From: Micromonospora echinospora
GTDB lineage: Bacteria > Actinomycetota > Actinomycetes > Mycobacteriales > Micromonosporaceae
Direction: 5' to 3'
Length of the DNA stretch: 64,000 nt
NCBI RefSeq assembly: GCF_014203425.1
Contig: NZ_JACHJC010000001.1
Span: 5,544,001 to 5,608,000 of the forward strand
Position numbers and translations under genes: made by a program. A model generated the notes under the pieces. The model did no database searches. It was not told the DNA's origin and worked only from the letters and a program-made list of their open reading frames with translations. Positions 10,183-58,229 of this stretch are shown piece by piece. Numbering within the stretch: position 1 is the first letter of the stretch; each line of letters begins with the position of its first letter.

Positions 10183-10205
10183 CTGTCGGGGGACGCTCGT
10201 AGACT
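10183..10205 (+). promoter_or_regulatory. DNA-damage (PafBC/RecA-NDp type) promoter of recQ
   Basis: CTGTCGGGG-N8-TAGACT matches the mycobacterial consensus TTGTCRGTG-N8-TANNNT in the TGTCR core, the spacing and the -10 box. The -10 ends 6 bases before the recQ ATG, so the mRNA should be leaderless. The same architecture precedes uvrC, uvrA, uvrB and polA. Confidence 0.72.
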
Positions 10206-10211
10206 GCGCGG

Positions 10212-12068
10212 ATGGTCTCCCCCACCGACGAGCGGACCAACGCCCCCCAGACCGACGACGCGCTGCGGGTGCTGCGGCGGGTCTTCGGGTACGACGCCTT
10301 CCGCGGCTTCCAGCAGGAGGTCGTCGAGCACGTGGTGGGCGGCGGCGACGCGCTGGTGCTCATGCCCACCGGTGGCGGCAAGTCGCTGTGCTACCAGATC
10401 CCGGCGCTGGTGCGCGACGGCGTGGCGGTGGTCGTGTCCCCGCTGATCGCGCTCATGCAGGACCAGGTCGACGCGCTCACCGCCGTCGGCGTACGGGCCG
10501 GGTTCCTCAACTCGACGCAGGACCCGGCGCAGCGGCGCCGGGTCGAGGCGGCCTACCTCGCCGGCGAGCTGGACCTGCTCTACCTCGCCCCGGAAGGGCT
10601 CGCCGTGCGCTCCACGCTCGGCCTGCTGGAACGCGGCCGGATCGCCCTGTTCGCGATCGACGAGGCGCACTGCGTCTCGCAGTGGGGGCACGACTTCCGG
10701 CCCGACTACCTCAACCTGTCGATGCTGCACGAGCGCTGGCCGGACGTGCCGCGGATCGCGCTGACCGCCACCGCGACCCAGGCGACCCGCACCGAGATCG
10801 CCACCCGGCTGCGGCTCACCGAGGCCCGGCACTTCGTGGCCAGCTTCGACCGGCCCAACATCCAGTACCGCATCGTGCCCAAGCGGGAGCCGCGCAAGCA
10901 GCTGCTGAGCCTGCTGCGCGACGAGCACCCGGGCGACGCCGGCATCGTCTACTGCCTGTCCCGGGCCTCGGTGGAGAAGACCGCCGAGTTCCTGGTCGCC
11001 AACGGCATCCCCGCGCTGCCCTACCACGCCGGGCTGGACGCCACGACCCGCGCCACCAACCAGCAGCGCTTCCTGCGCGAGGACGGGCTGGTCATGGTCG
11101 CCACGATCGCGTTCGGCATGGGCATCGACAAGCCCGACGTGCGCTTCGTCGCCCACCTCGATCTGCCGAAGTCGGTGGAGGGCTACTACCAGGAGACCGG
11201 GCGCGCCGGGCGCGACGGGCTGCCGTCCACGGCCTGGCTGGCGTACGGGCTGCAGGACGTGGTGCAGCAGCGCAAGATGATCGAGACGTCGGAGGGCGAC
11301 CTGGCGCACCGGCGCAACCTCGCCGCCCGCCTGGACGCGATGCTGGCGCTCTGCGAGACGGTCCGCTGCCGCCGCGCCCAACTGCTCGAATACTTCGGCG
11401 AGACCGGAGTGGCCGCCTGCGGCAACTGCGACACCTGCCTCGACGCGCCGGAGTCCTGGGACGGCACCGTCGCCGCGCAGAAGCTGCTCTCCACCGTCTA
11501 CCGGCTCGACCGCGAACGCAACCAGCGCTTCGGCGCCGGGCACAGCATCGACATCCTGCTCGGCAAGCACACCGACAAGATCGACCAGTACGGCCACGAT
11601 GCGCTGAGCACCTTCGGCATCGGCTCCGAGCTGCGCGAGGCCGAGTGGCGTGGCGTGGTGCGGCAACTGCTGGCCGAAGGTCTGCTCGCCGTCGAGGGCG
11701 ACTACGGCACGCTGGCGCTGACCGAGGCGAGCGCGGACGTGCTCGGCCGCCGCCGTACCGTCACGCTGCGCAAGGAGCCCGAGCGTCCGGCGGCCGGCCG
11801 CTCCGCCAAGCCCCGGGGCGCGGCCACAGTCGTCGCCGACCTCTCCCCCGCCGCCGCGCCGGTATTCGAGCGGCTCCGTGTGTGGCGCGCGGCCACCGCC
11901 AAGGAGCAGGGCGTCCCCGCTTACGTCATCTTCCACGACGCGACCCTGCGGCAGATCGCCGCCGAGCCACCGGCCTCACTGGCCGAACTGTCCCGGGTCA
12001 ACGGGGTGGGCGAGAACAAGCTCGCCAAGTACGGCGAGGCGATCCTGGCCGTCCTCGCCGAGTCCTGA
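10212..12068 (+). CDS. recQ: ATP-dependent DNA helicase RecQ
   Basis: RecQ unwinds DNA 3' to 5' in recombination and repair. The 618-residue protein has the full domain set: superfamily 2 helicase core with Walker [13 protein letters not shown] (about residue 55) and DEAH box [18 protein letters not shown] (about residue 150), helicase motif [11 protein letters not shown], the RecQ-C-terminal zinc site ([10 protein letters not shown] then CGNCDTC), winged helix, and an HRDC domain at the end ([13 protein letters not shown]). The ATG lies 6 bases behind a TAGACT -10 box. It stands alone between rapZ and the C39 peptidase gene and has a strong terminator. Confidence 0.96.
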
Positions 12069-12074
12069 CGTACG

Positions 12075-12117
12075 CGCGAAAGGGCCCGACCCCGTGGTGG
12101 GGTCGGGCCCTTTCGCG
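12075..12117. terminator. Bidirectional terminator between recQ and the C39 peptidase gene
   Basis: A perfect 19-bp stem (12075-12093 with 12099-12117) closes a 5-base loop. The stem has AAA/TTT pairs near its base and no long T tract. It sits 7 bases after the recQ stop and 66 bases before the stop of the convergent peptidase gene. Confidence 0.85.
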
Positions 12118-12183
12118 TGCTGTGGCCTCGCTGTTGGCTGCGTGTGTTCTTGCTCTGCAGCCATTGGTGCGGTGGTGTTGGTC

Positions 12184-12843
12184 TTAGCTGGTGCTGTAGC
12201 CGCGGGTGGCGATCCAGTCGGCGAGGTTGTCGATGCTCATGCGGTAGGTGGCGGTGTTCGGGTCGGCGCTGTCGGCGATGGTGACGGTGCGGCCGTCGTC
12301 GCGGTAGCCGATGACGCTGATGTAGTGGCCGCCTTCGAAGGAGTGGGTGTTGCCGTCGGTGTCGGTGGCGGTGCCGGCGATGTTGGCGACCACGGCCCGG
12401 CCGGCGTCGACGGTCTTCACCACGTCAGCGCGCAGGGTGTCGGTCTGCTTGTCGTCGGCCTTGGGGGTGCTGATCTCGACCGACTTGTAAGCATCCTTGG
12501 CGCCGGTCTCCTTGTTCAGCACGGGGGTGATGTCGTTGATGGAGTTGGTGCCGGACTCGGTGGTGCCCATCTCCTTGGCCATGGCGTGCACGTCGATGTT
12601 CTTGCCCTGCACGCTCAGCGCGTTGCGGGCGGCGGCGGGGCCGCAGAAGTAGAAGTTGGGCTGCGCCTCGTAGCGCACGTCCAACTCGCGCTCGCCGTGG
12701 CCGCTCTTACGGTCGGCCACCACGGCGGTGGTGCCGGTGGTGGGGGCGGCGTGGGCGGCGATGGCGGGGCCGGCGATGCCACCGGCGGTCGCGGCGATGC
12801 CGGCGGCGGTCAGGACGGTCTTGCGCAGCAGAGTGGTAGCCAT
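12184..12843 (-). CDS. Secreted C39-family (papain-like) cysteine peptidase-like protein
   Basis: The 219-residue protein has a classical Sec signal peptide (residues 1-32; positively charged start, hydrophobic core, AHA-A cleavage site). The mature part looks like the peptidase C39-like fold: catalytic Cys in NFYFCGPAAARNAL, His in EGGHYISVIGYRD and Asp in IADSADP. It has no transporter or ATP-binding domain, so it is not a bacteriocin exporter. The substrate is unknown. ATG at 12843 has AGGAAGG eight bases upstream. Upstream lie three tandem ECF-type promoter elements, pointing to stress-responsive export. Confidence 0.78.
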   Translation of the reverse strand: MATTLLRKTVLTAAGIAATAGGIAGPAIAAHAAPTTGTTAVVADRKSGHGERELDVRYEAQPNFYFCGPAAARNALSVQGKNIDVHAMAKEMGTTESGTNSINDITPVLNKETGAKDAYKSVEISTPKADDKQTDTLRADVVKTVDAGRAVVANIAGTATDTDGNTHSFEGGHYISVIGYRDDGRTVTIADSADPNTATYRMSIDNLADWIATRGYSTS

Positions 12844-12984
12844 GGTGGTTGCCTTCCTGAAGTGGGGGATGACGCGGCACAAGGGGGTATGCCGCGAAAG
12901 GGGGAAAGTTTGGGGGGGTGCCCGTGGGGAGAGGGCTGGCACGCGGGCGGCTCGGGGGCCTGCTCGGCGCGGCTCTGGGGGTGT

Positions 12985-13010
12985 AACGACCTGCGGGCGG
13001 GGCTCATTCC
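12985..13010 (-). promoter_or_regulatory. ECF-type promoter, copy 1 (nearest the C39 peptidase gene)
   Basis: On the minus strand GGAAT (13006-13010), an 18-base spacer and GTTAC match the sigma-R-like pattern GGAAT-N18-GTT. It would give a leader of about 135 bases before the peptidase ATG. Confidence 0.6.
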
Positions 13011-13062
13011 CGCCGGGCGTGGCTCCCGGCCGGGTTGACCGGGGGCGTGGCCTGGGGGATGT

Positions 13063-13088
13063 AACGACGACCGGGCCGGGGTCATTCC
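13063..13088 (-). promoter_or_regulatory. ECF-type promoter, copy 2
   Basis: GGAAT, exactly 18 bases, then GTTAC on the minus strand, 78 bp upstream of copy 1. The flanks (GGGAATGA before, GTTACATCCCCC after) resemble copy 1, so the copies arose by duplication or are kept by selection. Confidence 0.6.
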
Positions 13089-13124
13089 CGGGGGACGGCG
13101 GCGTGCCCGTGGCTCGGGGGGTGT

Positions 13125-13150
13125 AACGACGTCCGGGCCGGGCCGATTCC
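13125..13150 (-). promoter_or_regulatory. ECF-type promoter, copy 3 (most distant)
   Basis: GGAAT, exactly 18 bases, then GTTAC on the minus strand, 62 bp upstream of copy 2 and in the same direction. Confidence 0.6.
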
Positions 13151-13626
13151 CTCACCTGCCGCAGGGTGCTCGGCGGGCCGGTGTTCGGCGGCTGGTCCCG
13201 GTGCCCGGGCGGTCAGCCATGTACAACGCCCCGCACCCGCCGCCGATTCCACCCTCCCGGTGGCACCGACCACACCCCCGCCAAGCCCAGCCCAGCGAAC
13301 CGGACACCGCTCACCACACCCCCGCCAAGCCCACGCCGCGAACCGGACACGGCTCACCACACCACCCGCCCTCGGCTGCGATGCCCCGCCCGGGTGCGCA
13401 TGGAACCCTCGAAACGCACAGCCTCGAACCCCACGCCGTCACAGCTCCACCGCGGCCGCATGCGCGATCTTGCACTTTGGTGCCTGGCAAACCTCGCAAA
13501 CCCGGCATCCCTGGGGCGCTAACTGCAAGATCGCGTGGGCGTGGGCCGTAACCCCGTGACAAGCACTCGCGTCCAGGACTGGGCTGTGGTTTCGCGGCCA
13601 CCGGCACAAGCCCTGAGCGGTGAGCG

Positions 13627-13676
13627 AGATCTTGGTAGCGAATGGCCCTATGGGGGGCGCTTCCGTACCAAGATCT
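13627..13676. repeat. Dispersed hairpin element, copy 1
   Basis: Outer arms AGATCTTGGTA and TACCAAGATCT are a perfect 11-bp inverted repeat. The inner part contains AATGGCCC and a G-rich partner that pairs only in part. The same outer arms and internal AATGGCCC occur at 36422-36471. Confidence 0.75.
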
Positions 13677-13843
13677 GCCCCGCCTCTCAGAACGTGCGAC
13701 AAAGTTCGCGCCAGCTGGGAAGCCCGCCGTCAGTGGAACGTCATGGGTGTCAAACGGGGGCGGAGACACCCATGGGGTTCCACTCGGGCGTTGGCGGTGA
13801 CGTGCCGGCAAACCGGACAGGGAGCGCAGCCGGGCAGCGGACG

Positions 13844-15787
13844 TCAGGAAGGGGTCGTGGCGTCGGCCGGGGAGCCGTCCAGCGCGGCCAGGATCGCCTC
13901 CGCCGTACGCCTGCCGACGCCGGGGACCTCGGTGATCTCCTCCACGGTGGCGGTGGAGAGCCGCTTCAACGAGCCGAAGTGCCGCAGCAGCGCCTTGCGG
14001 CGTACCTCGCCGAGGCCGGGCACGTTGTCCAGCGCCGACTCGGTCATCCGCTTGGAGCGGCGCTGCCGGTGGAACGTGATGGCGAAGCGGTGCGCCTCGT
14101 CGCGTACGCGTTGCAGCAGGTAGAGCGCCTCGGACGTACGGGGCAGGATCACCGGGAACTCGTCGTCGGGCAGCCAGACCTCTTCCAGCCGCTTGGCCAG
14201 CCCGCACAGCGCCACGTCGTCGATGCCCAGCTCGGCGAGCGCCTTCGCGGCGGCGGCGACCTGGGGCGGGCCGCCGTCGACCACCACGAGCTGCGGCGGG
14301 TACGCGAACTTGCGCGGCCGCCCGGTGGTCGGGTCGATGCCGGGTCGGTCGGGGTCGGAGGCGGTCTCCTCGCCCAGCTCACCGGTCTCGGCGCGCGCGT
14401 CGAGGTAGCGGGCGAAGCGCCGCCGCAGCACCTCGGACATGGCCGACAGGTCGTCGGTGGCGCCGCGCACGATGAACCGGCGGTATTCGCTCTTGCGGGG
14501 CAGCCCGTCCTCGAACACGACCATGCTGGCGACCACGTCGGTGCCCTGGATCTGGGAGACGTCGAAGCACTCGATGCGCAGCGGCGAGGTGTTCATGGCC
14601 AAGGCGTCGGCGATCTCGTCCAGCGCCTGGCTGCGCGTGGTCAGGTCACCTGCCCGCTTGAGCTTGTGCCGGGCCAGCGCGTCCTTGGCGTTGCGCTCGA
14701 CCGTCTCCAGCAGCGACCGCTTGTCGCCGCGCTGGGGCACCCGCAGCGACACCCGGCTGCCCCTGCGGGTGGAGAGCCAGTCCGCGAGCGCATCGGCGTC
14801 GCCCGGCAGCTCGGGGACGAGCAGCTCACGTGGCACGTCGGCCTCGCCCTGCTCGCCGCCGTACACCTGGGTGCAGAAGTGGTGCACGAGGTCGCCGGTG
14901 CTCAGCTCCTCGGTCTTCTCCACCACCCAGCCGCGCTGGCCGCGCACCCGGCCGGCGCGTACGTGGAACACCTGCACGGCGGCTTCGAGCGGGTCGTCGG
15001 CGAAGGCGACCACGTCGGCGTCGGTGCCGTCGCCGAGCACCACCGTCTGCTTCTCCATCGCCCGACGCAGCGCCGCGACGTCGTCGCGCAGCCGGGCGGC
15101 CCGCTCGAACTCCAGCTGCTCGCTGGCGTCGAGCATCTCCTTCTCCAGCCGGCGGACCATGGTGTCGGTGCGGCCGGCCATGAAGTCGCAGAAGCCGTCG
15201 ACGATCTCGCGGTGCTGCTCGGCGGTGACGCTGCCGACGCACGGCGCGGAGCACTTGCCGATGTAACCGAGCAGGCAGGGCCGCCCGACCTGCCCGGCCC
15301 GCTTGAACACCCCGGAGGAGCAGGTCCGCGCCGGGAACACCCGCAGCAGCAGGTCGAGCGTCTCGCGGATCGCCCAGGCATGGGAGTACGGCCCGAAGTA
15401 GCGCACCCCCTTGCGCTTGACGCCGCGCATCACCTGAAACCGGGGGTATTCCTCGTCGAGCGTGACCGCGAGATAGGGGTACGACTTGTCGTCGCGGTAG
15501 CGGACGTTGAACCTGGGGTCGTACTGCTTGATCCAGGTGTATTCCTGCTGGAGCGCCTCGACCTCGGTGGCGACGGTGATCCAGTCGACCGACTCGGCGG
15601 TGAAGACCATCTGCCGGGTGCGCTGGTGCAGGCCGACCGGGTCGGCGAAGTAGGAGTTGAGCCGGCTGCGCAGGTTGCGCGCCTTGCCGACGTAGATCAC
15701 CCGGCCGGTGCCGTCGCGGAAGCGGTAGACCCCTGGCGACTCCGGGATGGTGCCGGGCGCGGGACGGTAGGTCGAGGGGTCAGCCAC
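13844..15787 (-). CDS. uvrC: Excinuclease ABC subunit C
   Basis: UvrC makes both incisions around DNA damage in nucleotide excision repair after UvrB loading. The 647-residue protein has an N-terminal GIY-YIG nuclease domain ([21 protein letters not shown]), a cysteine cluster [18 protein letters not shown], a UVR motif for UvrB contact ([15 protein letters not shown], about residue 210), an RNase H-like nuclease domain ([15 protein letters not shown] and VVVDGG) and C-terminal helix-hairpin-helix motifs ([28 protein letters not shown]). I chose GTG at 15787, 7 bases after a TAGGCT -10 box. An in-frame GTG ten codons earlier lies inside the promoter. Confidence 0.96.
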
Positions 15788-15794
15788 GCTCTCA

Positions 15795-15817
15795 AGCCTA
15801 GTCCGCACCCCTGACAC
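15795..15817 (-). promoter_or_regulatory. DNA-damage (PafBC/RecA-NDp type) promoter of uvrC
   Basis: On the minus strand GTGTCAGGG-N8-TAGGCT fits TTGTCRGTG-N8-TANNNT in core and spacing. The -10 box ends 7 bases before the GTG start, giving a leaderless transcript. Confidence 0.72.
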
Positions 15818-15824
15818 CCGGCCG

Positions 15825-15858: not shown

Positions 15859-15861
15859 GGG

Positions 15862-16450: not shown

Positions 16451-19396
16451 TCAGCGCGCCCCGGCCGGCACCTTGCGGGCGGCCCGCGGCTTGGCGCCGC
16501 CGTTGGCCTTGGCCGCCCGGGTGGTGGCCGCCTTGGCGCCCTTGGCCTGGCCGTCGAGCTTGAGGATCGGCCGCAGGAACTGCCCGGTGTGGCTCTCCGG
16601 CACCTCGGCGACCTCCTCCGGCGTGCCGGTGGCGATGACGGTGCCGCCCCGGTGCCCGCCCTCGGGACCCATGTCGATGAGCCAGTCGGCCGTCTTGATC
16701 ACGTCGAGGTTGTGCTCGATGGTGATGACCGTGTTGCCCTTGTCGACCAGGCCCTCCAGCACCATCAGCAGCTTGCGGATGTCCTCGAAGTGCAGGCCGG
16801 TGGTCGGCTCGTCGAGCACGTAGACGGTGCGGCCGGTGGAGCGCTTCTGCAGCTCCGAGGCGAGCTTGACGCGCTGCGCCTCACCGCCGGACAGCGTCGG
16901 CGCGGGCTGGCCGAGGCGCACGTAGCCGAGGCCGACGTCGACGAGCGTCCTGAGGTGCCGGTGGATGGCCGGGATGGCGGAGAAGAACTCGGCCGCCTCC
17001 TCGATCGGCATGTCCAGCACCTCGGCGACCGTCTTGCCCTTGTAGTGCACTTCCAGCGTCTCGCGGTTGTAGCGCGCGCCCTTGCACACCTCGCAGGGGA
17101 CGTAGACGTCCGGCAGGAAGTTCATCTCGATCTTGATGGTGCCGTCGCCGGAGCACGCCTCGCAGCGCCCGCCCTTGACGTTGAACGAGAACCGGCCCGG
17201 GCCGTACCCCCGCACCTTGGCCTCGGTGGTCTCGGCGAAGAGCTTGCGGATGTGGTCCCAGACCCCGGTGTAGGTGGCCGGGTTGGAGCGCGGGGTACGC
17301 CCGATCGGCGACTGGTCCACGCCGACGACCTTGTCCACGTTCTCCAGGCCGGTGACCCGGGTGTGCCGGCCGGGCACCAGCCGGGCGCCGTTGATCTGGT
17401 TGGCCAGCACGGCGTAGAGGATGTCGTTCACGAGCGTCGACTTGCCCGAGCCGCTGACCCCGGTGACCGCGATGAGCTGGCCGAGCGGGAAGCTCACGGT
17501 GAGGTCGCGCAGGTTGTGCTCGCGCGCGCCGTGCACCACCAGCTCGCGCCCCGGCGTCTGCGCGCGGCGGTCGGCGGGCGTCGGGATGGACTTGCGCCCG
17601 GACAGGTACGCCCCGGTGACCGACTCGGCGTTGTCCAGCAGCGCCGGCACCGAACCGCTGTGCACGATCTCGCCGCCGTGCTCGCCGGCGCCCGGGCCGA
17701 TGTCGACGATCCAGTCGGCCACCCGGATGGTGTCCTCGTCGTGCTCGACCACGATCAGCGTGTTGCCGAGCCCGCGCAGCCGCAGCAGCGTCTCGATGAG
17801 GCGGTGGTTGTCCCGCTGGTGCAGGCCGATGGACGGCTCGTCGAGCACGTAGAGCACGCCGACCAGGCCGGAGCCGATCTGGGTGGCGAGCCGGATGCGC
17901 TGCGCCTCGCCGCCGGAGAGCGTGCCGGCGGGCCGGTCCAGGGAGAGGTAGTCCAGCCCGACGTCGAGCAGGAACTTCAGCCGGGCGTTGATCTCCTTGA
18001 GCACCCGCTCGGCGATCATCTTCTGCCGGTCGGTCAGCTCGATGCCGGCCAGCAGGTCGGCCGCCTCGCCGACGGAGAGGTTGCAGACCTCGGCGATGCT
18101 CTTGCCGGCCAGCGTGACCGCGAGCACCTCCGGCTTGAGCCGGGCGCCGCCGCAGGCCGCGCAGGGCACGTCCCGCATGTAGCCCTCGTACTTGTCGCGG
18201 GACCACTCCGACTCGGTGTCGGTGTGCCGGCGCTCGATCCACTGCACCACGCCCTCGAAGCCGGTGTAGTAGGAGCGCTCGCGGCCGTACTTGTTGCGGT
18301 AGCGCACGTGCACCTGGTCGTCGGAGCCGTGCAGGATCGTCTTCTGCGCCCGCGACGGCAGCGCCCGCCACGGCGTGTCGATGTCGAAGTGCTCGGCCTC
18401 GCCCAGCGCCTCCAGCAGCCGCAGGAAGTATTCGAGGTTGTGCCCGGTGGCCCACGGCTGGAGCGCGCCCTCGCGCAGCGTGCGCTCCGGGTCGGGGATG
18501 ACCAGCTCGGGGTCGACCTCCTTCTTCGTGCCCAGGCCGGTGCACTCCGGGCAGGCGCCGTAGGGGGCGTTGAAGGAGAAGACCCGGGGTTCCAGGTCCT
18601 CGATGGCGAGGGGGTGGTCGTTCGGGCAGGCCAGGTGCTCGGAGTAGCGGCGCTCGCGGGCCGGGTCGTCCTCCGGCAGGTCGACGAAGTCGAGCAGCAC
18701 CAGGCCGCCGGAGAGCCCGAGCGCGGCCTCGACCGAGTCGGTCAGCCGCTGCTTGGCGCTCGGCTTGACGCTGAGCCGGTCGATCACCACCTCGATGGTG
18801 TGCTTCTCCTGCTTCTTGAGCTTCGGCGGCTCGGTCAGCGGGTGCACCACGCCGTCGACCCGGGCCCGGGCATAGCCCTTGGCCTGCAGCTCGGCGAACA
18901 GGTCGACGTACTCGCCCTTGCGGCCGCGCACCACCGGCGCGAGCACCATGAACCGGGTGCCCTCGGCCATGGCCAGGAGGCGGTCGACGATCTGCTGCGG
19001 GCTCTGCTTGGAGATCCGCTCGCCGCAGATCGGGCAGTGCGGCTCGCCGATGCGGGCGAACAGCAGACGGAGGTAGTCGTAGACCTCGGTGATGGTGCCG
19101 ACGGTGGAGCGCGGGTTGCGCGAGGTGGACTTCTGGTCGATGGAGACGGCGGGGCTGAGGCCCTCGATGAAGTCGACGTCGGGCTTGTCCATCTGGCCGA
19201 GGAACTGCCGGGCGTACGACGACAGCGACTCGACGTAGCGGCGCTGCCCCTCGGCGAAGATGGTGTCGAACGCCAGGCTCGACTTGCCCGAACCGGAGAG
19301 CCCGGTGAAGACGATCAGGGCGTCCCGGGGCAGGTCGAGACTGACGTCACGCAGGTTGTGCTCGCGCGCGCCACGGATGATCAGTCGGTCGGCCAC
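16451..19396 (-). CDS. uvrA: Excinuclease ABC subunit A
   Basis: UvrA is the damage-recognising ATPase of nucleotide excision repair. The 981-residue protein has two ABC modules, each with a Walker A ([18 protein letters not shown] near residue 35; [16 protein letters not shown] in the second half) and signature motifs ([19 protein letters not shown] and [16 protein letters not shown]). It also has zinc-binding cysteine pairs ([33 protein letters not shown] with CEVCKG). A Lys/Ala-rich tail of about 45 residues follows. GTG at 19396 ([14 protein letters not shown]) is preceded by GGGAG about 11 bases away. Its damage promoter is about 100 bases upstream. Confidence 0.97.
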
Positions 19397-19501: not shown

Positions 19502-19524
19502 ACTCTAGCCCCGACGTGTGACAA
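19502..19524 (-). promoter_or_regulatory. DNA-damage (PafBC/RecA-NDp type) promoter of uvrA
   Basis: On the minus strand TTGTCACAC-N8-TAGAGT fits TTGTCRGTG-N8-TANNNT including the first T. Unlike the other four repair genes here, the -10 box is about 105 bases from the GTG start, leaving room for a leader. Confidence 0.72.
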
Positions 19525-42714: not shown

Positions 42715-43008
42715 ATGGTTCTTGAGGTCGCGCTTATCGATGTGACGCCCGGAAACGAGGACGACTTCGCCGCCGCCTACGCGCAGGCGCGGCCGATCCT
42801 CGCCGGCGCCGAGGGCTGCCGTTCCGTGCGGATGACCCGGGGCGTGGAGTCGCCCTCCCGGTTCGTCCTGCTGGTCGAGTGGGACTCGGTCGAGGCGCAC
42901 GACGTGAACTTCCGCCAGACCGAACGGTTCGCGCAGTGGCGCGGGCTGATCGGCCCGTACTTCGCCGGGCCGCCGCTGGTCGAGCACTTCACCGACGTCC
43001 CGGCCTGA
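42715..43008 (+). CDS. Antibiotic biosynthesis monooxygenase (ABM) domain protein
   Basis: The 97-residue protein is a single ABM-type ferredoxin-like barrel: VLEVALIDVTPGNEDDFAAA at the N-terminus, AGCRSV-like EGCRSVRMTRGVESPSRF, LLVEWDSVEAHDVNFRQTE and a C-terminal GPYFAGPPLVEHF. Such proteins are dimeric, and many are small oxygenases or merely binding proteins. Function is unknown here. ATG at 42715 with CAGGCT 6 bases upstream hints at a leaderless mRNA. Confidence 0.8.
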   Translation: MVLEVALIDVTPGNEDDFAAAYAQARPILAGAEGCRSVRMTRGVESPSRFVLLVEWDSVEAHDVNFRQTERFAQWRGLIGPYFAGPPLVEHFTDVPA

Positions 43009-43104
43009 ACTGTCGTACCCGTGCCGTAGCCTGCGCGCTGCGCGGCCACCGGCCCCGACGGTCATCGGGGGCGCCGGGCCCGGTGGTCGCGCCAGGTCGC
43101 GCCG

Positions 43105-43204
43105 GTCAGTCCAGGTCGTACGGGTCAGTCCAGGTCGTACGGGTCAGTCCAGGTCGTACGGGTCAGTCCAGGTCGTACGGGTCAGCCCAGGTCGTGCGGA
43201 TCGC
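43105..43204. repeat. 20-bp tandem repeat array at the 3' end of the XRE regulator gene
   Basis: Four identical units of GTCAGTCCAGGTCGTACGGG (43105-43184) are followed by a diverged fifth unit (43185-43204) with two changes in its first 19 bases. The fifth unit is the coding end of the regulator gene read on the minus strand. The array is thus a duplication of the last codons plus the stop. Confidence 0.92.
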
Positions 43205-44078
43205 GCTGACGGGGCACCGGCGCTGCGCCCAGCCGCCGGGCCACCAACTCGGCCGTGGCATCGGGTGGCAGCGCGACCGCGAGCAGCAGTTCGATGACCC
43301 GCTCGTAGTGGGTCACGTCCGTCTCGGACACCAGGCGCACGTCGGTGGTGAGCGTCTCCACCAGCACGGTGCGCGGGTCCGCCGGATCGGGGTAGGCGTA
43401 GTAGGAGAACGGCGCGAGCGGGTGCGGGCCGTCGCCGCAGGATGCGCCGGGCAGCAGCCGGACGCTGACGCGTGGCCGCTCGGCGAGGGCGAGCAGATGC
43501 CGCATCTGGTCGCGCCACACGTCACCGGGCAGGCCGTCCGGGTCGCAGACCCGCTCGTCGATCAACGCCGTGTAGTGCGGCGGGTCCGGCCGGATCAGCA
43601 GCTCCTGACGCGCCGCGCGGGCGCGGACCTCGGCCTCCACGTCGACGTCGCCGGTCAGCGCCGCGCCCGCCGACACACGCAACCGGGCGTACGCCGGGGT
43701 CTGGAGCAGGCCGGGCACGAGCGCGCACTGGTACTCGACGATGCGCTCGGCGCCCGCCTCCAGCTCGACGTACGCCCGCTGCCGTTCGCCCATCTCGCCG
43801 AGCGCCCGGGACCAGCCGCGTCCGGTGGCGGCGTCCCGGGCGATGACGATCAACTCGTCCCGCTGCGGTGACGGCACCTGGTAGACGTCGAGCAGGTCGA
43901 GCACGTCGGCCAGGTCGGGCCGGCTCTGCCCCAGCTCGATGCGGGACAGCTTCGAGGTGGATGCCCAACCCAGCCGGACGCAGACCTGCTCCAGCGTGAG
44001 CGACTCGCGACGGCGCAGCCGGCGCAGCTCCACACCGAGCCGCGCCCTCCGGACCACGGGACTTGCTGACAACGGCAT
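43182..44078 (-). CDS. XRE-family helix-turn-helix regulator (DUF5753/Scr1-associated type)
   Basis: The 298-residue protein has an N-terminal XRE helix-turn-helix (LTLEQVCVRLGWASTSKLSR, about residues 28-47) and a long C-terminal region of the kind found in the large actinomycete family with DUF5753 (EYQCALVPGLLQTPAYARL, RARAARQELLIRPDPPHY). In Streptomyces such regulators usually pair with a small DUF397 protein. None is adjacent here. ATG at 44078 has GGGAGG five bases upstream. Its last codons form the diverged end unit of a tandem repeat array. Confidence 0.87.
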   Translation of the reverse strand: MPLSASPVVRRARLGVELRRLRRRESLTLEQVCVRLGWASTSKLSRIELGQSRPDLADVLDLLDVYQVPSPQRDELIVIARDAATGRGWSRALGEMGERQRAYVELEAGAERIVEYQCALVPGLLQTPAYARLRVSAGAALTGDVDVEAEVRARAARQELLIRPDPPHYTALIDERVCDPDGLPGDVWRDQMRHLLALAERPRVSVRLLPGASCGDGPHPLAPFSYYAYPDPADPRTVLVETLTTDVRLVSETDVTHYERVIELLLAVALPPDATAELVARRLGAAPVPRQRDPHDLG

Positions 44079-45425: not shown

Positions 45426-47531
45426 TCACCGGACCCCTGCGGCGTCCATCCCGCGCAACTCCTTCTTGAGGTCGGCGACCTCGTCCCGGATCCGGGCGGC
45501 CAGCTCGAACTGCAACTCCCGCGCGGCGGCGAGCATCTGGTCGTTGAGCTCCTGGATGAGGTTGGCGAGGTCGGCACGGGCCATCCCCTCGCGCGACGGG
45601 GTCCCCGCGGCGCCGCGGCGGCTGCGCGTCTCCTTCACCGGCGCCTTGCCCCGGGAGAGCTGCCGCACGGCCCCGCCGACGTTGCTGTTCTCGGTGTCCT
45701 CCGCCTCGCGGTAGATGTCGTCGAGGATGTCGTGGATCTTCTTGCGCAGCGGCTCCGGCCTGATGCCGTTCGCCTCGTTGTGCGCGATCTGCTTGGCCCG
45801 GCGCCGGTTGGTCTCGTCGATCGCGTTCGCCATCGACGGCGTGATCTTGTCGGCGTACATGTGGACCTGGCCGGAGACGTTACGGGCCGCCCGGCCGATG
45901 GTCTGGATCAGCGACCGGCCGCTGCGCAGGAACCCCTCCTTGTCGGCGTCGAGGATCGCCACCAGGGAGACCTCGGGCAGGTCGAGACCCTCCCGGAGCA
46001 GGTTGATGCCGACGAGCACGTCGTAGTCGCCCTTGCGCAGCTCGCGCAGCAGCTCGACCCGGCGCAGCGTGTCGACCTCGGAGTGCAGGTAGCGCACCCG
46101 GATGCCGTTCTCCAGCAGGTAGTCGGAGAGGTCCTCGGCCATCTTCTTGGTGAGCGTGGTGACGAGCACGCGCTCGTCCCGCTCGGTGCGCAGCTTGATC
46201 TCGTGCATGAGGTCGTCGATCTGGCCCTTGGTCGGCTTGACCACCACCTCGGGGTCGATCAGGCCGGTGGGGCGGATCACCTGCTCGACGAACTCGCCCT
46301 GGGACCGCTCCAGCTCCCACGGGCCGGGGGTGGCGGAGAGGTAGACCATCTGGCCCACCCGCTCCAGGAACTCGTCGAAGCGCAGCGGCCGGTTGTCCGC
46401 GGCGCTCGGCAGCCGGAAGCCGTGGTCGACGAGCATCCGCTTGCGGGAGGCGTCGCCCTCGTACATGCCGCCGATCTGCGGGATCGTCACGTGCGACTCG
46501 TCGATCACTGTGAGGAAGTCGTCCGGGAAGTAGTCGAGCAGGCAGTGCGGCGGGCTGCCGGGCAGCCGGCCGTCGATGTGCATGGAGTAGTTCTCGATGC
46601 CGGAGCAGAAGCCCACCTGGCGCATCATCTCGATGTCGTAGGTGGTGCGCATGCGCAGCCGCTGGGCCTCCAGCAGCTTGCCCTGCCGCTCCAACTCGGC
46701 CAGCCGCTCGCCCAGCTCGGCCTCGATGTCGCGGATCGCCCGTTCCATCCGCTCCGGACCGGCGGCGTAGTGCGTGGCCGGGAAGATCATCAAGCTGTCG
46801 ACCTCGCGGACCACGTCGCCGGTCAGCGGGTTCAGGTAGTAGAGCTTCTCGATCTCGTCACCGAACAGCTCGATCCGGACCGCCAGCTCCTCGTACGCCG
46901 GGATGATCTCCAGCGTGTCGCCGCGGACCCGGAAGGTGCCGCGCTGGAAGGCCATGTCGTTGCGGGTGTACTGGATGTCGACCAGCCGCCGCAGCAGCCG
47001 GTCGCGGTCGAGCTCCTGCCCCACCTTGACCCGGACGGCGCGCTCGAGGTATTCCTCCGGCGTGCCCAGGCCGTAGATCGCCGAGACGGTGGCGACCACG
47101 ATGACGTCCCGCCGGGTGAGCAGCGACATGGTGGCCGAGTGCCGCAGCCGCTCGACCTCCTCGTTGACCGAGGAGTCCTTCTCGATGTAGGTGTCGGTCT
47201 GCGGGATGTACGCCTCGGGCTGGTAGTAGTCGTAGTAGGAGACGAAGTACTCCACCGCGTTGCGCGGCAGCAGCTCGCCGAACTCCTTCGCGAGCTGGGC
47301 GGCGAGGGTCTTGTTGGGGGCGAGCACCAGGGTCGGCCGCTGAAGCCGCTCGACCAGCCACGCCGTGGTGGCGCTCTTGCCGGTGCCGGTCGCGCCGAGC
47401 AGCACCGTGTTGCGGTCGCCGCGCCGCACGCGACGCTCAAGCTCGTCGATCGCCGCCGGCTGGTCACCGGCCGGCTGGAACTCACTGACGACCTGGAAGC
47501 GGCCGTCGAGCCGGGGAATGTCGAGCGCCAT
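45426..47531 (-). CDS. uvrB: Excinuclease ABC subunit B
   Basis: UvrB is the damage-verifying helicase of nucleotide excision repair. The 701-residue protein has Walker [17 protein letters not shown] (about residue 43), the beta-hairpin region starting [12 protein letters not shown], helicase motif [11 protein letters not shown], and the C-terminal UVR motif ([20 protein letters not shown]) that meets UvrC. ATG at 47531 lies 7 bases behind TACCGT. An in-frame upstream start 15 codons earlier would lie within the promoter and is rejected. Confidence 0.97.
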
Positions 47532-47538: not shown

Positions 47539-47561
47539 ACGGTACGCCCGAGGTCCGACAC
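47539..47561 (-). promoter_or_regulatory. DNA-damage (PafBC/RecA-NDp type) promoter of uvrB
   Basis: On the minus strand GTGTCGGAC-N8-TACCGT fits TTGTCRGTG-N8-TANNNT in core and spacing. The -10 box ends 7 bases before the ATG (leaderless). Confidence 0.68.
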
Positions 47562-50795: not shown

Positions 50796-50847
50796 TCAGA
50801 GGCAGTCGCCGGCTCGTCCGGTGGGACGAGCAGGCGTCAGCGTCCGG

Positions 50848-53493: not shown

Positions 53494-53583
53494 CCGGTTC
53501 CCCTTCGCGATCAAGCTGCCGATCGTGGAGATCCGGCCCTGACGACGCCGTTACTCGGTATCCCCGGCGGGTAACCGTCCGGC

Positions 53584-53802
53584 ATGGCCGAGAAGGAGTT
53601 CCGCGCCGGCGACCACGTCTCCTGGGCCAGCCACAGCGGCCGGGCGTACGGGGTCGTCAAGGAGAAGCTGACCGAGCGCACCCACGTCCGCGGGCACACC
53701 GTGAACGCCTCCCCGGAACAGCCGCAGTACCGGATCACCAACGACGACTCGGGCCGCGACGTCGCCCACCGACCGGAGGTGCTGCGCCATGAGTCGCGCT
53801 GA
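53584..53802 (+). CDS. DUF2945 (Tudor-like) small protein
   Basis: The 72-residue protein is a DUF2945-type, hypervirulence-associated Tudor-like domain: FRAGDHVSWASHSGRAYGVV, a central Thr/Val-rich stretch and PQYRITNDDSGRDVAHRPEVL. It is probably a small beta barrel that binds nucleic acid or protein; function unknown. It overlaps the next gene by 14 bases, and the two families are often neighbours, so they likely act together. Confidence 0.8.
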   Translation: MAEKEFRAGDHVSWASHSGRAYGVVKEKLTERTHVRGHTVNASPEQPQYRITNDDSGRDVAHRPEVLRHESR

Positions 53803-54136
53803 GGACCCGCAGCAGACGTACCGGGAGTTCACCGACGCGGTGAACATGAAGCCCGGCGAGCTGTCCCGCTGGCTGGAGACCGACGAGTCCAAGCACGTCG
53901 GCTGGCACAAGAAGGGCACCCAGGGCGGCGAGTCGGTCGGGCACGACTCCGGCCGCCGGATCGTCGACCTGCTGCGGCGCAAGCGCGCCGACCTCACCGC
54001 CGCCGACTACAAGCACATGCGCAAGGTGATCGGATACGTCCACCGGCACCTGGCCCAACGCCCCTCCGGGGACGTCCGCGACACGAGGTGGCGCTGGTCG
54101 CTGATGAACTGGGGTCACGACCCGCTCAAGAGCTGA
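53789..54136 (+). CDS. DUF3140 family protein
   Basis: The 115-residue protein matches DUF3140: FTDAVNMKPGELSRWLETDES, VGHDSGRRIVDLLRRKRADL, DYKHMRKVIGYVHRHLAQRP and the C-terminal RWSLMNWGHDPLK. The basic and aromatic pattern suggests DNA binding, but no function is established that I know. The ATG overlaps the end of the DUF2945 gene by 14 bases. Confidence 0.8.
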   Translation: MSRAEDPQQTYREFTDAVNMKPGELSRWLETDESKHVGWHKKGTQGGESVGHDSGRRIVDLLRRKRADLTAADYKHMRKVIGYVHRHLAQRPSGDVRDTRWRWSLMNWGHDPLKS

Positions 54137-54176
54137 GCCGGCCGGTCGTTCGCCCCACGTTGGTACCGTGCGGGCG

Positions 54177-55035
54177 ATGACGACAGACGTCTCGACCGCC
54201 GGCCGTCATCCCCGCGCCGGGCGGGTGGTCCTCCTGGCGGGCCTCGGGCTCATCGCCGTCGCGGTGATCGTCCTGGTGGCGACCGGGAACACCGGTGTCC
54301 GGTACAGCGCCGACCACGACGGCACCGTACCGATGTGGAGCCGCTGGATCCCGGCGCTGGCCGGGATCGCGCTGATCCGCCTGATCCCACCCGCGTCCGA
54401 CCCGAGGTGGCCGGACCCGGTCGCGCCGTACCGCGAGGCGGTGCCGCTGCTGCTGGCCGGGATCGCGTTCGCCGCCGTCATGCCGCTGCTGGGCGGCGAG
54501 CCCGCGTACACGGTGTTGAAGCTCGCGCTGCTGCTCGGCGTACCGGCCGCTGTGTTCCTGGCCGCGCGCCGCCGGCCGCCGCGGTGGCGGCCGGGCCCGG
54601 CCCCGGCGGACGCCGCCCACCGGTGGGGTCCGGCGCTGCCGGTGGCGGTGTGGCTGGTGCTCAGCTACGCGACGCCGCTGGCCGTGCCGGCCAGCGACTG
54701 GGGGCGGACCGTCACGCCGGTCGAGCTGGTAGTCACGCTGCTGGTGGCCTTCGCGGTGAACGCGCTGCTGGAGGAGGTCTTCTACAGGCGGTGGCTGCAG
54801 ACCCGGTGGGAGTCGCTGCTGGGCGGCGATCGTGCTCGCGTCGCTGGTGTGGGCGGTCTGGCACGTGGCCATCCAGGGCACCGGACGGCCGGGCGTCGAA
54901 CTGGCCACAGTGCTGGTCAACCACGGGGTGCTCGGGCTCTTCCTCGGCTACCTGTGGTCCCGGTACCGCCGGATGTGGCCGCTGCTGGTGGTGCACGGCG
55001 CGCTCAACGCGATGCCCACGCTGCTCGGTCTCTGA
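54177..55035 (+). pseudogene. CPBP family intramembrane protease gene with a frameshift
   Basis: CPBP proteases (Rce1/abortive-infection-like) have several membrane segments with the motifs EExxxR and HxxxxN. Here EEVFYRRW is in the first frame, up to WESLLGG. The rest (ASLVWAVWHVAIQGTG, NHGVLGLFLGYLWSRYR, VVHGALNAMP) continues in another frame from about 54824. Removing one G from GGG at 54821-54823 restores one frame of about 285 residues. It is either a real inactivating frameshift or a sequencing error. ATG at 54177 lies 7 bases behind TACCGT (leaderless). Annotated as broken on the sequence as given. Confidence 0.82.
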
Positions 55036-55120
55036 CCGGCCCGCTTGATCCCGGCATCGGCCACGATCCCTCAAGCGGTGACCGGGCGGCGGCAGCCGCC
55101 CGGAGCGGAGCCGCCACGGC

Positions 55121-55429
55121 TCAGCCAGCCGTCTGGTACCACACCTCCTGCACCGACCACTTCGGCAACGGGCAGGTCGCCGTGGACACCCCGCCGACCG
55201 CCACTCTGGGGCCCGAGCGGCTCCACTCATCTCCCCAGATGCTCATGCAGTGGACCGTCACCCAGACGGTGCCGGTGCCGCCGGTGCAGGTCGCGTACCC
55301 GACGCCGGCCAAGTCCCAGGCGCTGCACCCGGTCGGGGCCGCCTGCGCCGCCGTGGCGGGCGTGAGGGCCGCCACGCTGGCCAGCAATCCGGCCGCCGCC
55401 AGCCGGCTCACCATCTGACGTACACCCAT
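55121..55429 (-). CDS. Small secreted protein of unknown function
   Basis: The 102-residue precursor has a Sec signal peptide (MGVRQMVSRLAAAGLLASVA, then AQAAPTG with cleavage after AQA). The mature part of about 70 residues has four cysteines, enough for two disulfides, and is rich in Trp, Thr, Gly and Val. I do not recognise the family. ATG at 55429 has GAAGGGG about nine bases upstream; an in-frame ATG at 55435 is too close to it. A TTGTCC-N16-TATAGT promoter precedes it. Confidence 0.7.
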   Translation of the reverse strand: MGVRQMVSRLAAAGLLASVAALTPATAAQAAPTGCSAWDLAGVGYATCTGGTGTVWVTVHCMSIWGDEWSRSGPRVAVGGVSTATCPLPKWSVQEVWYQTAG

Positions 55430-55465
55430 CGCCATCCACCCCTTCGAAGTTGATGAATATCGACC

Positions 55466-55493
55466 ACTATAAGGATGGCGATGGCGCGGACAA
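55466..55493 (-). promoter_or_regulatory. Promoter of the small secreted protein gene
   Basis: On the minus strand TTGTCC (55488-55493), 16 bases, TATAGT (55466-55471) in an AT-richer gap just past the polA stop. Confidence 0.55.
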
Positions 55494-55499
55494 GAACGA

Positions 55500-58199
55500 C
55501 TAGTGGTCGGCGCTGTTCCAGTCGCGGCCCTCGCCCACCGACACCTCCAGCGGCACCGACAGCGGGTACGCCTCGCCCATCTGCTTACGCACCAGCGCCT
55601 CCAGCGTCTCCCGCTCGCCCGGCGCGACCTCGAAGACCAGCTCGTCGTGCACCTGCAACAGCATCCGCGACCGCAGCCCGGCGTCGCGCAGCGCGCTGTC
55701 GACGTGCAGCATCGCGACCTTGATGATGTCGGCCGCCGAGCCCTGGATCGGGGCGTTGAGCGCCATCCGCTCGGCCATCTCCCGGCGCTGCCGGTTGTCG
55801 CTGACCAGGTCGGGCAGGTAGCGGCGGCGGCCCAGGATGGTGGAGGTATAGCCGTCCTGGCGGGCGCGGGCCACCACCTCCTGGAGGTAGTCGCGGACCC
55901 CGCCGAACCCGGCGAAGTAGTTCTCCATCAGCCCGCGCGCCTCCTCGGCGGAGATGCCGAGCTGCTGGGACAGGCCGAACGCGCTGAGCCCGTACGCCAG
56001 GCCGTAGTTCATCGCCTTGATCTTGCGGCGCTGATCGGCGGTGACCTCGCCGACCTCGACGGTGAAGACGGACGACGCGGTGGCGGCGTGGAAGTCGTGC
56101 CCCGAGTTGAACGCCTCGATCAGCGCGTCGTCCGAGGACAGGTGCGCCATGATCCGCATCTCGATCTGGCTGTAGTCGGCGGTGAGCAGGCACTCGTAGC
56201 CCTCGCCGACGACGAACGCGCGCCGGATCCGCCGCCCCTCCTCGGTGCGGATCGGGATGTTCTGCAGGTTCGGCTCGGTGGAGGACAGCCGCCCGGTCGC
56301 CGCCACCGTCTGGTTGAACGTGGTGTGGATCCGGCCGTCGTCGGAGACCGACTTGAGCAGGCCGTCCACTGTCGACTTGAGCTTGGCCACATCCCGGTGG
56401 CGCAGCAGGTGGTGCAGCAGCGGGTGCTCGGTCTGCGCGTAGAGCCACTGGAGCGCGTCGGCGTCGGTGGTGTAGCCGGTCTTGATCCGCTTGGTCTTCG
56501 GCAGGCCCAGCTCGGTGAAGAGGATCTCCTGCAGCTGCTTCGGCGAGCCGAGGTTGAACTCGCGGCCGACCACCTCGTACGCGCTCTGGGCGGCGGCCTT
56601 CACCTCGGCGGCGAAGTGCGCCTCCAGCTCGGAGAGGTAGTCGGTGTCGGCGGCGATGCCGGTGCGCTCCATGGTGGCGAGCACCCGCATCAGCGGCAGC
56701 TCGACGCCGGCCATCAGCCGGGCCGACTGCTCGCCGTCGCGGGACAGCTCGGCGTCGATCGCGTCGGCCAGGTCGAGCGTGGCGCGGGCCTGGAGCATGA
56801 GGTTCTGCTCCGCCACCCCCTCGTCGCCGAGCCCGTCGAGCGTGAGCTGCCCGGTCTCCGGCGCGTCGACACGCAGCTCCCGGTGCAGGTAACGCAGCGC
56901 CAGGTCAGTCAGGTCGTAGGAGCGCTGGTCGGGGCGGGCCAGGTAGGCGGCGATCTGCGTGTCGCGGGCGATGCCCTGCAGCTCCCAGCCGTGCGCGGCG
57001 AACGCCAGCACCGCCGGTTTGCTGTCGTGCAGCACCTTCGGGCGCTCGGCGTCGGCGAGCCACCCGGCCAGCGCGGCCTCGTCATCGGCGCCCAGGGCGC
57101 TCGGGTCGAACCAGGCGCCCGCGCCGCCCGCGGTGGCCAGCGCCATAGCGGTCACCGTGGCGGTGTGCCGGCGGTTGGGGCCGGTGTCGAGCGTGACAGC
57201 CAGACCCACCGGGGCGCCCGCCGGGGCATGCGTGTCGAGCCAGCCCGCGAGCGCGCCCGGCTCGGTGAGCACCTCGCCGTCAAGGTCGAAGCCCGCCTCG
57301 GCCTCCGGCTCGACCGCCTCCAGGTACTGGTAGAGCCGGTCGCGCAGGATGCGGAACTGCAGCGTGTCGAAGACCTGGTGCACCGCTTCGCGGTCCCAGC
57401 CCTGCCAGCGGGCGTCTTCGGGGCGTACCGGCAGCTCCAGGTCGGAGACCAGGCGGTTGATCTCGTAGTTGCGGATCACGTCGGCGAGCCGCTCGCGCAG
57501 GCTGTCGCCGGCCTTGCCCTTGATCTCGTCGGCGCGGGCCACCACGCCCTCGACGCCGCCGTACAGGTTGATCCACTTAGCCGCGGTCTTCGGGCCGACG
57601 CCCGGCACGCCGGGCAGGTTGTCGCTGGTCTCGCCGACCAGCGCGGCCAGGTCGCGGTAGCGGTCCGGGGTGACGCCGTACTTCGCCTCGACCGCGGCCG
57701 GGTCCATCCGGGCCAGGTCGGAGACGCCCTTGCGCGGGTAGAGCACAGTGACCTGCTCCCCGACGAGCTGGAACGCGTCCCGGTCGCCGGTGGTGATCAG
57801 CACGTCCATGCCCTGGTCGCGGGCCTGGCAGGCGAGCGTCGCGATGACGTCGTCGGCCTCGTAGCCCTCCCGCTCGACCACCGGCACGCGCAGCGCGGCG
57901 AGGACCTCCTTGACCAGGCTGACCTGGCCCTTGAAGTCGGTCGGGGTCTCGCTGCGGCCGGCCTTGTATTCGGCGTACCTGTCCGTGCGGAAGGAGCGGC
58001 GGGAGACGTCGAACGCCACGACGATGTGCGTCGGCTGCTCGTCGCGCAGCACGTTGATCAGCATCGAGGTGAAGCCGTAGACGGCGTTGGTCGGCTGCCC
58101 CGTCGTGGTGGAGAAGTTCTCCACAGGCAGGGCGAAGAAAGCCCGGTATGCCAGGGAATGTCCGTCGACGAGGAGCAGGCGCGGCGTCGTAGCTGTCAC
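55500..58199 (-). CDS. polA: DNA polymerase I
   Basis: Pol I fills gaps in repair and Okazaki processing. The 899-residue protein has an N-terminal 5'-3' exonuclease (LLLVDGHSLAYRAFF, EGYEADDVIATLA, GVPGVGPKTAAKWI), a middle domain where the 3'-5' exonuclease acidic residues are not evident, and a C-terminal polymerase. Polymerase motifs are A (LTADYSQIEMRIMAHL), B (RRKIKAMNYGLAYGLS) and C (LLQVHDELVFE). Loss of proofreading is usual in actinobacterial Pol I. GTG at 58199 lies 7 bases behind TAGAGT. An in-frame upstream start would lie across the promoter. Confidence 0.97.
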   Translation of the reverse strand: MTATTPRLLLVDGHSLAYRAFFALPVENFSTTTGQPTNAVYGFTSMLINVLRDEQPTHIVVAFDVSRRSFRTDRYAEYKAGRSETPTDFKGQVSLVKEVLAALRVPVVEREGYEADDVIATLACQARDQGMDVLITTGDRDAFQLVGEQVTVLYPRKGVSDLARMDPAAVEAKYGVTPDRYRDLAALVGETSDNLPGVPGVGPKTAAKWINLYGGVEGVVARADEIKGKAGDSLRERLADVIRNYEINRLVSDLELPVRPEDARWQGWDREAVHQVFDTLQFRILRDRLYQYLEAVEPEAEAGFDLDGEVLTEPGALAGWLDTHAPAGAPVGLAVTLDTGPNRRHTATVTAMALATAGGAGAWFDPSALGADDEAALAGWLADAERPKVLHDSKPAVLAFAAHGWELQGIARDTQIAAYLARPDQRSYDLTDLALRYLHRELRVDAPETGQLTLDGLGDEGVAEQNLMLQARATLDLADAIDAELSRDGEQSARLMAGVELPLMRVLATMERTGIAADTDYLSELEAHFAAEVKAAAQSAYEVVGREFNLGSPKQLQEILFTELGLPKTKRIKTGYTTDADALQWLYAQTEHPLLHHLLRHRDVAKLKSTVDGLLKSVSDDGRIHTTFNQTVAATGRLSSTEPNLQNIPIRTEEGRRIRRAFVVGEGYECLLTADYSQIEMRIMAHLSSDDALIEAFNSGHDFHAATASSVFTVEVGEVTADQRRKIKAMNYGLAYGLSAFGLSQQLGISAEEARGLMENYFAGFGGVRDYLQEVVARARQDGYTSTILGRRRYLPDLVSDNRQRREMAERMALNAPIQGSAADIIKVAMLHVDSALRDAGLRSRMLLQVHDELVFEVAPGERETLEALVRKQMGEAYPLSVPLEVSVGEGRDWNSADH

Positions 58200-58206
58200 G
58201 GCAGCG

Positions 58207-58229
58207 ACTCTAGTCCGTACGCCCGACAA
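58207..58229 (-). promoter_or_regulatory. DNA-damage (PafBC/RecA-NDp type) promoter of polA
   Basis: On the minus strand TTGTCGGGC-N8-TAGAGT fits TTGTCRGTG-N8-TANNNT, including the first T. The -10 box ends 7 bases before the GTG (leaderless). Confidence 0.74.

Follow-up and report, generated by a model that had tools for sequence, protein, structure and literature searches.

RecA-independent DNA damage promoters (RecA-NDp) of mycobacteria follow the consensus TTGTCRGTG-N8-TANNNT. Published systems are described here and below as they are given in the available excerpts of the papers cited. In Mycobacterium smegmatis, PafB touches the -26 element and PafC touches domain 4 of sigma-A, with PafBC being activated by single-stranded DNA in its WYL domains (PMC11804915). 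The genes recA, uvrA and uvrC are under PafBC in mycobacteria (PMC8223512), and a pafBC mutant was reported to have lower RecQ and RecA protein and lower uvrB and recA transcript (PMC5656591). RecA-NDp promoters have also been described in Streptomyces, for recA and the macrodomain gene SCO6735 (PMC5087735), and the M. smegmatis motif has been remarked to be seemingly not conserved in S. venezuelae (PMC9380542). Among small RNAs, B55 of M. tuberculosis is approximately 61 nt in length, lies on the forward strand just behind Rv0609A and before Rv0610c, is listed as mitomycin C-responsive and, according to its authors, may be part of a 3' UTR (PMC2764107, PMC8628891).

Comparison of these systems with the window (the whole 64-kb stretch of Micromonospora DNA that was analysed) and with the genome it belongs to showed that the sites described below are like mycobacterial RecA-NDp/PafBC promoters in possessing a TGTCR element at a fixed distance to a TANNNT -10 box, in preceding repair genes and in the presence of PafBC. 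They are unlike them in that the GTG of the consensus is often replaced (by NACC, GGG or GGC), and are set apart by a leaderless layout at approximately half of the sites and by a non-coding element. It is very probable that five repair-gene sites and a sixth site at 43011 belong to one genome-wide PafBC/RecA-NDp promoter set, whose mRNAs are probably leaderless at about half of the sites and whose member at 43011 most likely makes a hairpin RNA of approximately 55 nt.

The 23-mers which a sequence-only reading of this DNA had placed before recQ, uvrC, uvrA, uvrB and polA were all found to be exact in position and strand, and the identity of the five genes was upheld by NCBIfam equivalogs above cut-off. 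The gap of 12 bases that it claimed between TGTCR and TANNNT was incorrect: the gap is 11 bases at all five confirmed sites, TGTCR-N12-TANNNT having zero matches in the window, while the 9-N8-6 spelling given by the same reading is right. It had further reported no match of this spacing at the other genes it checked; the five sites stand, but a sixth match at 43011-43032 on the forward strand had been overlooked. The features concerned are as follows.

10184..10205, + strand: PafBC-type promoter of recQ; the -10 box ends 6 bases before ATG 10212 (leaderless layout)
10212..12068, + strand: recQ (TIGR01389, above cut-off)
15795..15816, - strand: PafBC-type promoter of uvrC, with leaderless layout (GTG 15787 follows after 7 bases)
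13844..15787, - strand: uvrC (NF001824, TIGR00194)
19502..19523, - strand: PafBC-type promoter of uvrA; leader of approximately 100 nt to GTG 19396
16451..19396, - strand: uvrA (NF001503, TIGR00630); translation could instead start at the in-frame GTG 19468
47539..47560, - strand: PafBC-type promoter of uvrB, with leaderless layout (ATG 47531 follows after 7 bases)
45426..47531, - strand: uvrB (NF003673, TIGR00631)
58207..58228, - strand: PafBC-type promoter of polA, with leaderless layout (GTG 58199 follows after 7 bases)
55500..58199, - strand: polA (NF004397, TIGR00593)
43011..43032, + strand: sixth PafBC-type promoter (CTGTCGTACCC...TAGCCT), with no ORF downstream
42742..43008, + strand: ABM-domain gene (PF03992), ending 2 bases before the sixth promoter
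43182..44057, - strand: convergent HTH/DUF5753 regulator gene (PF19054, PF13560)
43039..43094, + strand: putative small RNA, a long imperfect hairpin; the start at 43039 is placed from the -10 box

All six motif matches of the window have the N11 spacing, with 1.15 matches expected for spacings 11-13 pooled. TANNNT was found 5-9 bases before the start codon of 11 of the 57 called window genes, with TGTCR in place at four of these, all four being repair genes (Fisher p = 0.003). None of the remaining seven is a recognised repair gene, one being without a Pfam match; the family search covered 17 of the 57 called genes, and further window repair genes without the motif are possible. The GTG half of the consensus was present at none of the five repair sites (0/5), with TGTCR and TANNNT at exact spacing at all of them (5/5).

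A scan of the whole genome (7.13 Mb, one contig), which the sequence-only reading had proposed as a check, gave 73 matches to TGTCR-N11-TANNNT and 23 to the same pattern read backwards as a control, with the 73 being rich in repair genes. The control count is if anything too high, as it includes three copies of one repeat and three of another, and roughly a third of the 73 sites are probably due to chance. The excess lies wholly with N11. When gaps 8-14 were pooled, 163 matches were found against 149 reversed, the small total excess being due to the six other gaps falling below the reversed mean (90 matches, approximately 15 each, with a reversed mean of approximately 21). Among the first 100 matches listed for gaps 8-14, N11 accounted for 42 and every other gap for 8-12.

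Candidate ORFs, called in this genome by a codon score trained on the window, were identified within 400 bases downstream of 67 of the 73 sites and at none of the other six. Scanning of 66 of these 67 against Pfam or NCBIfam (L067 being omitted, and the nearer ORF being taken at four sites) placed repair genes or operons, by family name, behind 19 of the 73 sites. These are, besides recQ, uvrC, uvrA, uvrB and polA of the window, recA, a LigD-type primase-polymerase, an AlkZ-like gene and two more of this kind, a PD-(D/E)XK nuclease, recN, mfd, ligA, xseA, tag, dinB, a DEDD exonuclease with a UvrC-like part, and yloV, immediately followed by recG. Non-repair members include a gyrB-like topoisomerase, two WGR-domain genes, two DUF1877 genes, nadD, homoserine kinase, a polyketide synthase and unknowns. 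For the reversed-control sites the test was stricter than for the 73, as ORFs were counted up to 150 bases away; 3 of 23 had one, and none of these was a repair gene.

Several single members of the set were observed alongside these. The nadD site (L088:2884-3477, - strand) has the leaderless layout and the NAD-dependent ligA likewise has a site, making it possible that NAD supply is tied to repair. The two WGR-domain and two DUF1877 genes (L074, L090, L084, L094) may encode unknown damage-response proteins. A WYL-domain regulator gene (L087:8502-9191, - strand) lies behind a TGTCGTACCC-type site with leaderless layout. Near the gene of the DEDD exonuclease, L086:3509-3742 (- strand) encodes a protein of approximately 78 residues with several Cys and no Pfam match; a plausible ribosome-binding site precedes it, and it has a TGTCR-N11-TANNNT site to itself, matched by a counterpart in the congener G082.

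Orthologues of pafB and pafC, the search for which had likewise been suggested by the sequence-only reading, were found side by side (L095:4778-5779 and L095:5779-6783). Both match PDB chains of 7p5x, 9fnd and 6sj9, with best E-values against solved chains of 6e-67 for PafB and 2e-78 for PafC. A gene which we take from its translation to be tatC lies close to them. PafB of this genome aligns to solved PafB over nearly its full length and differs from it around what is presumably the recognition helix, a difference that may or may not underlie the shift away from GTG. PF19187 is matched at E 6e-44 and has six matches in this genome, two of them above cut-off. As 293 of the 296 genomes have PF19187, whether a genome encodes PafC could not be used to test motif dependence. 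The three genomes without PF19187 gave pattern/reversed counts of 20/12, 19/11 and 34/54 and are too few to judge.

The repair genes of the set overlap with those of the SOS/LexA regulon; no close SOS box lies near the 73 sites. A strict SOS box search at these sites found none, and a mismatch-tolerant search from 250 bases upstream to 120 bases downstream found boxes with two mismatches in 2 of 73 regions (0.5 expected from letter shuffles) and with three mismatches in 14 of 73 (5.5 expected). The two candidates with two mismatches belong to recA (71 bases before the motif, and weak) and to L093. These counts are compatible both with LexA control and with the LexA independence proposed by the sequence-only reading.

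Damage induction, PafBC dependence and the start points of the set are what we infer here, the mechanism being assigned because of homology with M. smegmatis. DNA damage would give rise to single-stranded DNA and so to active PafBC, which would bind TGTCR near -26 and so allow RNA polymerase carrying the housekeeping sigma factor to start at promoters that have a -10 box (TANNNT) alone. The predicted regulon is of a known kind, PafBC/RecA-NDp, in a lineage variant with "GTG" often being "NACC". A family of antibiotic producers would thus have a damage regulon under PafBC, and the members of this regulon can be sought by the N11 spacing and an often leaderless start.

A start codon 5-9 bases past the -10 box was identified at 34 of the 73 sites (at 28 of them the distance is 6 or 7), counting ORFs of at least 60 codons with coding-like codon use. 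None of the 23 sites of the reversed pattern, which puts no -10 box there, showed the leaderless layout. A fairer baseline is given by all TANNNT of the window, where 14 of 65 have an ORF start 4-10 bases behind, or 10 of 59 when the six sites are excluded (p = 4e-4 against 34/73). Within the window, recQ, uvrC, uvrB and polA have the leaderless layout and uvrA does not. As the start codon coincides with the expected transcription start, the mRNAs of about half the sites, including those of recQ, uvrC, uvrB, polA and recA, are probably leaderless. Leaderless repair mRNAs would link the damage response with leaderless translation.

The sequence-only reading had suggested that the relaxed GTG may be a lineage variant, and this was borne out: TGTCRGTG was found in 6 of 33 sites of this genome (the filtered leaderless set with uvrA added) against 49 of 90 sites across the class (p = 4e-4). 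An A at position 6 was found to co-occur with a C at position 7, both class-wide (p = 1e-7) and in this genome (p = 5e-5), and owing to this coupling TGTCR-N-ACC looks like a second accepted form of the element. The sites of uvrB and recA have GGACC in this genus and mostly GTG forms elsewhere.

Conservation within the family was investigated with a scan of genome contigs, from which the best 80 of 253 loci were used; these are mostly of Micromonospora, with Salinispora, Asanoa, Actinoplanes and others also represented. UvrC of the window shares 97-99% identity with its counterparts in M. chalcea, M. maritima and M. tulbaghiae. In none of the conservation counts given here do related genomes amount to independent samples. 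Among these best 80 of 253 loci, with the window counted, the motif was found before uvrC in 74 of 81 sequences, within 140 nt upstream of uvrA in 65 of 72 and before recQ in 17 of 38 readable sequences (uvrA having 76 matches and recQ 42, of which those without a readable start were left out). When the 81 uvrC sequences were aligned without selection for the motif, conservation was 95-99% in the TGTC columns, 100% at TA and at the final T, and 30-86% over the 40 bases preceding the motif. Upstream of recQ the -10 box is kept in nearly all 38 sequences and TGTC is lost in many, which suggests that recQ joined or left the promoter set within the family and is a member only in part of it.

In the congener G082, 64 sites were found, and 29 sites of this genome could each be paired with a G082 site by downstream DNA. 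The pairing of mfd with uvrB was false and that of L010 doubtful (69 bases), leaving 27 pairs that include the 43011 site; at least 44 of the 73 sites have no counterpart in G082.

Across the class, 30 of 296 genomes were hand-picked to cover families, with knowledge of their genome-wide pattern counts and not of their upstream regions, and were searched from 400 bases before to 60 bases behind the first matched codon. The motif was present at recA in 28 of 30 genomes, at uvrB in 25 of 30, at polA in 19 of 29 (one genome being dropped for a match starting at residue 86) and at uvrC in 17 of 30, with the reversed pattern found in 0 of 119 of the same regions. The motif was absent from polA in 4 of 4 readable Streptomyces-group genomes and from uvrC in 13 of the 30 class genomes. 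One co-ordinated regulon including recQ and polA, as the sequence-only reading had interpreted the five sites, is partly supported: the genome-wide PafBC-type set rich in repair genes, the adjacent pafB and pafC genes and the lineage-variant GTG speak for it, the inclusion of recQ is too strong in view of the low share of recQ sequences with the motif, and damage induction and LexA independence are predictions.

The whole-genome pattern clearly exceeded its reverse in family f18 and in this genus. In many genomes of family f2, taken to include Mycobacterium, it was barely or not above the reverse, perhaps due to the loose pattern being too weak there. Although PafC is matched in genome G209 (family f40), the pattern occurs there once against 10 times reversed and stands at none of recA, uvrB, uvrC and polA; the motif set may have been lost from this genome. 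Family f18 was taken for Streptomyces because 4 of its 5 recA promoters hold exactly the 14-base SOS box published for S. venezuelae recA. The same promoter type is thus shared outside mycobacteria, with a recA site in 5 of 5 Streptomyces-group genomes, where TTGTCAGTGG...TAGCGT precedes recA; TGTCAGTGG was found in 9 of 16 Streptomyces-group sites, unlike in Micromonospora. These recA sites agree with the RecA-NDp promoter reported for Streptomyces recA, as far as the excerpts of that paper go (PMC5087735), and are at odds with the remark on S. venezuelae as it stands in the excerpts of PMC9380542. A -26 element that drifts between lineages may be related to the failure, described in PMC9380542, of a first search of S. 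venezuelae with the M. smegmatis motif.

No ORF was found on the forward strand behind the 43011 motif. A DNA search with 121 bases around 43011 in 61 genomes of the genus gave 54 matched loci (that of this genome included) and seven genomes without a match. TGTCR-N11-TANNNT was present near the expected place in 53 of the 54, as 44 different 22-mers; the remaining match, L414, has no motif and looks spurious. The search pattern itself fixes TGTC, R, TA and the final T; among the positions left free, A6 and C8 were invariant in all 53 loci and C7 was changed once. Upstream, the ABM gene was identified in 52 of the 53 loci; on the downstream side the convergent gene was identified in 46, with six of the seven loci lacking it extending only approximately 700 bases downstream. 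Depending on the locus, the end of the ABM match and the motif are 5 to 135 bases apart, so that the promoter and hairpin travel as a unit.

Three other views of this locus were discarded. A chance match behind a stop codon was overturned by the pairing with G082 and the genus search, and an earlier impression that some loci were without an upstream ABM gene was wrong. The element was also considered as coding, but no GTG is common among the loci except one within the 3' arm, which several of them lack, leaving no shared start.

The arms of the hairpin lie at about 43040-43052 and 43080-43092. Identity among the loci is mostly above 70% and often 100% from approximately +30 to +82, with some free positions, and falls to approximately 40% by +86 and 30% past +100, giving a sharp 3' edge; on the 5' side there is no edge, the upstream coding sequence being as conserved as the promoter. 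The hairpin of this genome folds at -42 kcal/mol (z = -3.1), and those of three relatives gave z = -3.4, -2.3 and -0.7. When the 53 loci were folded singly most gave the hairpin, with 10 or 11 preferring another GC-rich fold. Compensatory changes, on both sides with pairing kept, were identified in the lower stem. On a model-fitted alignment, seven pairs showed double changes (reached by 2 of 500 shuffles) in 26 cells (0 of 500), which points to covariation beyond chance. A plain MAFFT alignment supports this in part: its 14 cells (0 of 500 shuffles) and its score (1 of 500) go beyond the shuffles, but its four pairs with double changes (74 of 500) and 11 additional pair types (476 of 500) do not. 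Within the stem, an A-C mismatch is kept in 51 of 53 loci and a pyrimidine-pyrimidine mismatch also in 51 of 53 (U-C 36, C-U 12, C-C 3), and the inner hairpin sequence is nearly invariant.

Rfam gave no matches above gathering score in the window, one miRNA model being found below threshold (E 3.9). Searches for the hairpin RNA in six uvrB regions (L415-L420) reached E 0.09 at best, and those in ten uvrC regions of Salinispora, Asanoa and Actinoplanes were likewise without a clear match; the RNA need not lie in any of these regions. The one 18-kb uvrB region searched for the Streptomyces group gave no match. A hairpin in the uvrC region L158 (E 0.004) was read as a terminator. The nearest precedent seen is B55, which is similar to the putative RNA at 43039-43094 in size and position; the two are compared by description only, and PafBC control is not stated for B55 in the excerpts of the papers describing it.

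Other explanations for the promoter set can be weighed against these observations. In favour of the sites being ordinary leaderless sigma-A promoters, with TGTCR being there by chance or composition, leaderless -10 boxes are common, both at window genes (11/57) and among window TANNNT (14/65). This explanation is nevertheless hardly credible: it is opposed by the 73 against 23 matches genome-wide at a single spacing, by TGTC columns far more conserved than the preceding 40 bases in the 81 unselected uvrC sequences, by the many repair genes behind the sites and by the class control of 0/119. Another regulator may read part of the set, with GTG-type and NACC-type sites belonging to two WYL regulators, or with ClgR involved. 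The coupling of A6 and C7 and the six PF19187 matches, two above cut-off, are compatible with two regulators, and ClgR is reported to recognise the motif in mycobacteria (cited in PMC5656591). Against this, uvrB and recA swap type between families, and such a swap at the same gene is as expected of one drifting regulator, making the involvement of a further regulator improbable.

With regard to the sixth site, the hairpin at 43040-43092 could be only a terminator of 42742-43008, and also of the convergent 43182-44057, with the promoter-like 22-mer having another role. Its position between convergent genes, with the ABM gene upstream and the convergent gene downstream in most loci, and its GC-rich and very stable stem would suit a terminator; the equal conservation of the coding sequence just upstream also weighs against the small-RNA reading. 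A terminator, however, needs no promoter in front, and 53 of 54 loci have one; the distance from motif to hairpin stays short while that from motif to ABM gene end does not, and the convergent gene was not found in 7 of 53 loci, six of which have the short downstream reach given above. In addition, mismatches are kept as mismatches within a stem whose inner sequence is nearly invariant, and the stretch before the uvrC motif, which contains a hairpin-like repeat in the window, drifts, unlike the 43011 hairpin. Termination alone is thus considered rather unlikely.

A transcript starting near 43039 is likely, because the 43011 promoter is under the same constraints as the repair-gene promoters; the same promoter would most likely make the RNA of approximately 55 nt, which would be almost only hairpin and may also end its own transcript. 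The constraint on mismatches and inner sequence suggests reading by a protein, and protein binding, rather than termination alone, is our best guess. On balance we lean towards a PafBC response of Micromonospora that includes a structured non-coding RNA of approximately 55 nt (43039-43094), almost wholly one imperfect hairpin with mismatches under selection, which would be induced by damage along with the repair genes and would act by binding protein and not by base-pairing. If this is true, the mycobacterial-type, LexA-independent response has an RNA arm, and an RNA driven by PafBC would add a new type of member to the regulon. Among the titles listed in literature searches, mostly of non-subscription papers, none links PafBC with small RNA or with leaderless mRNA.

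Two repeats were also observed behind the element. In the window, positions 43101-43190 behind the hairpin, at the 3' end of the convergent regulator gene, contain a short tandem repeat (ggtcgtacgggtcagtcca). At L368 (genome G325), four partial copies of the inner hairpin part were identified behind the element at approximately 1549-1920 with a spacing of 68 bases, one of these copies being a second match to the model.
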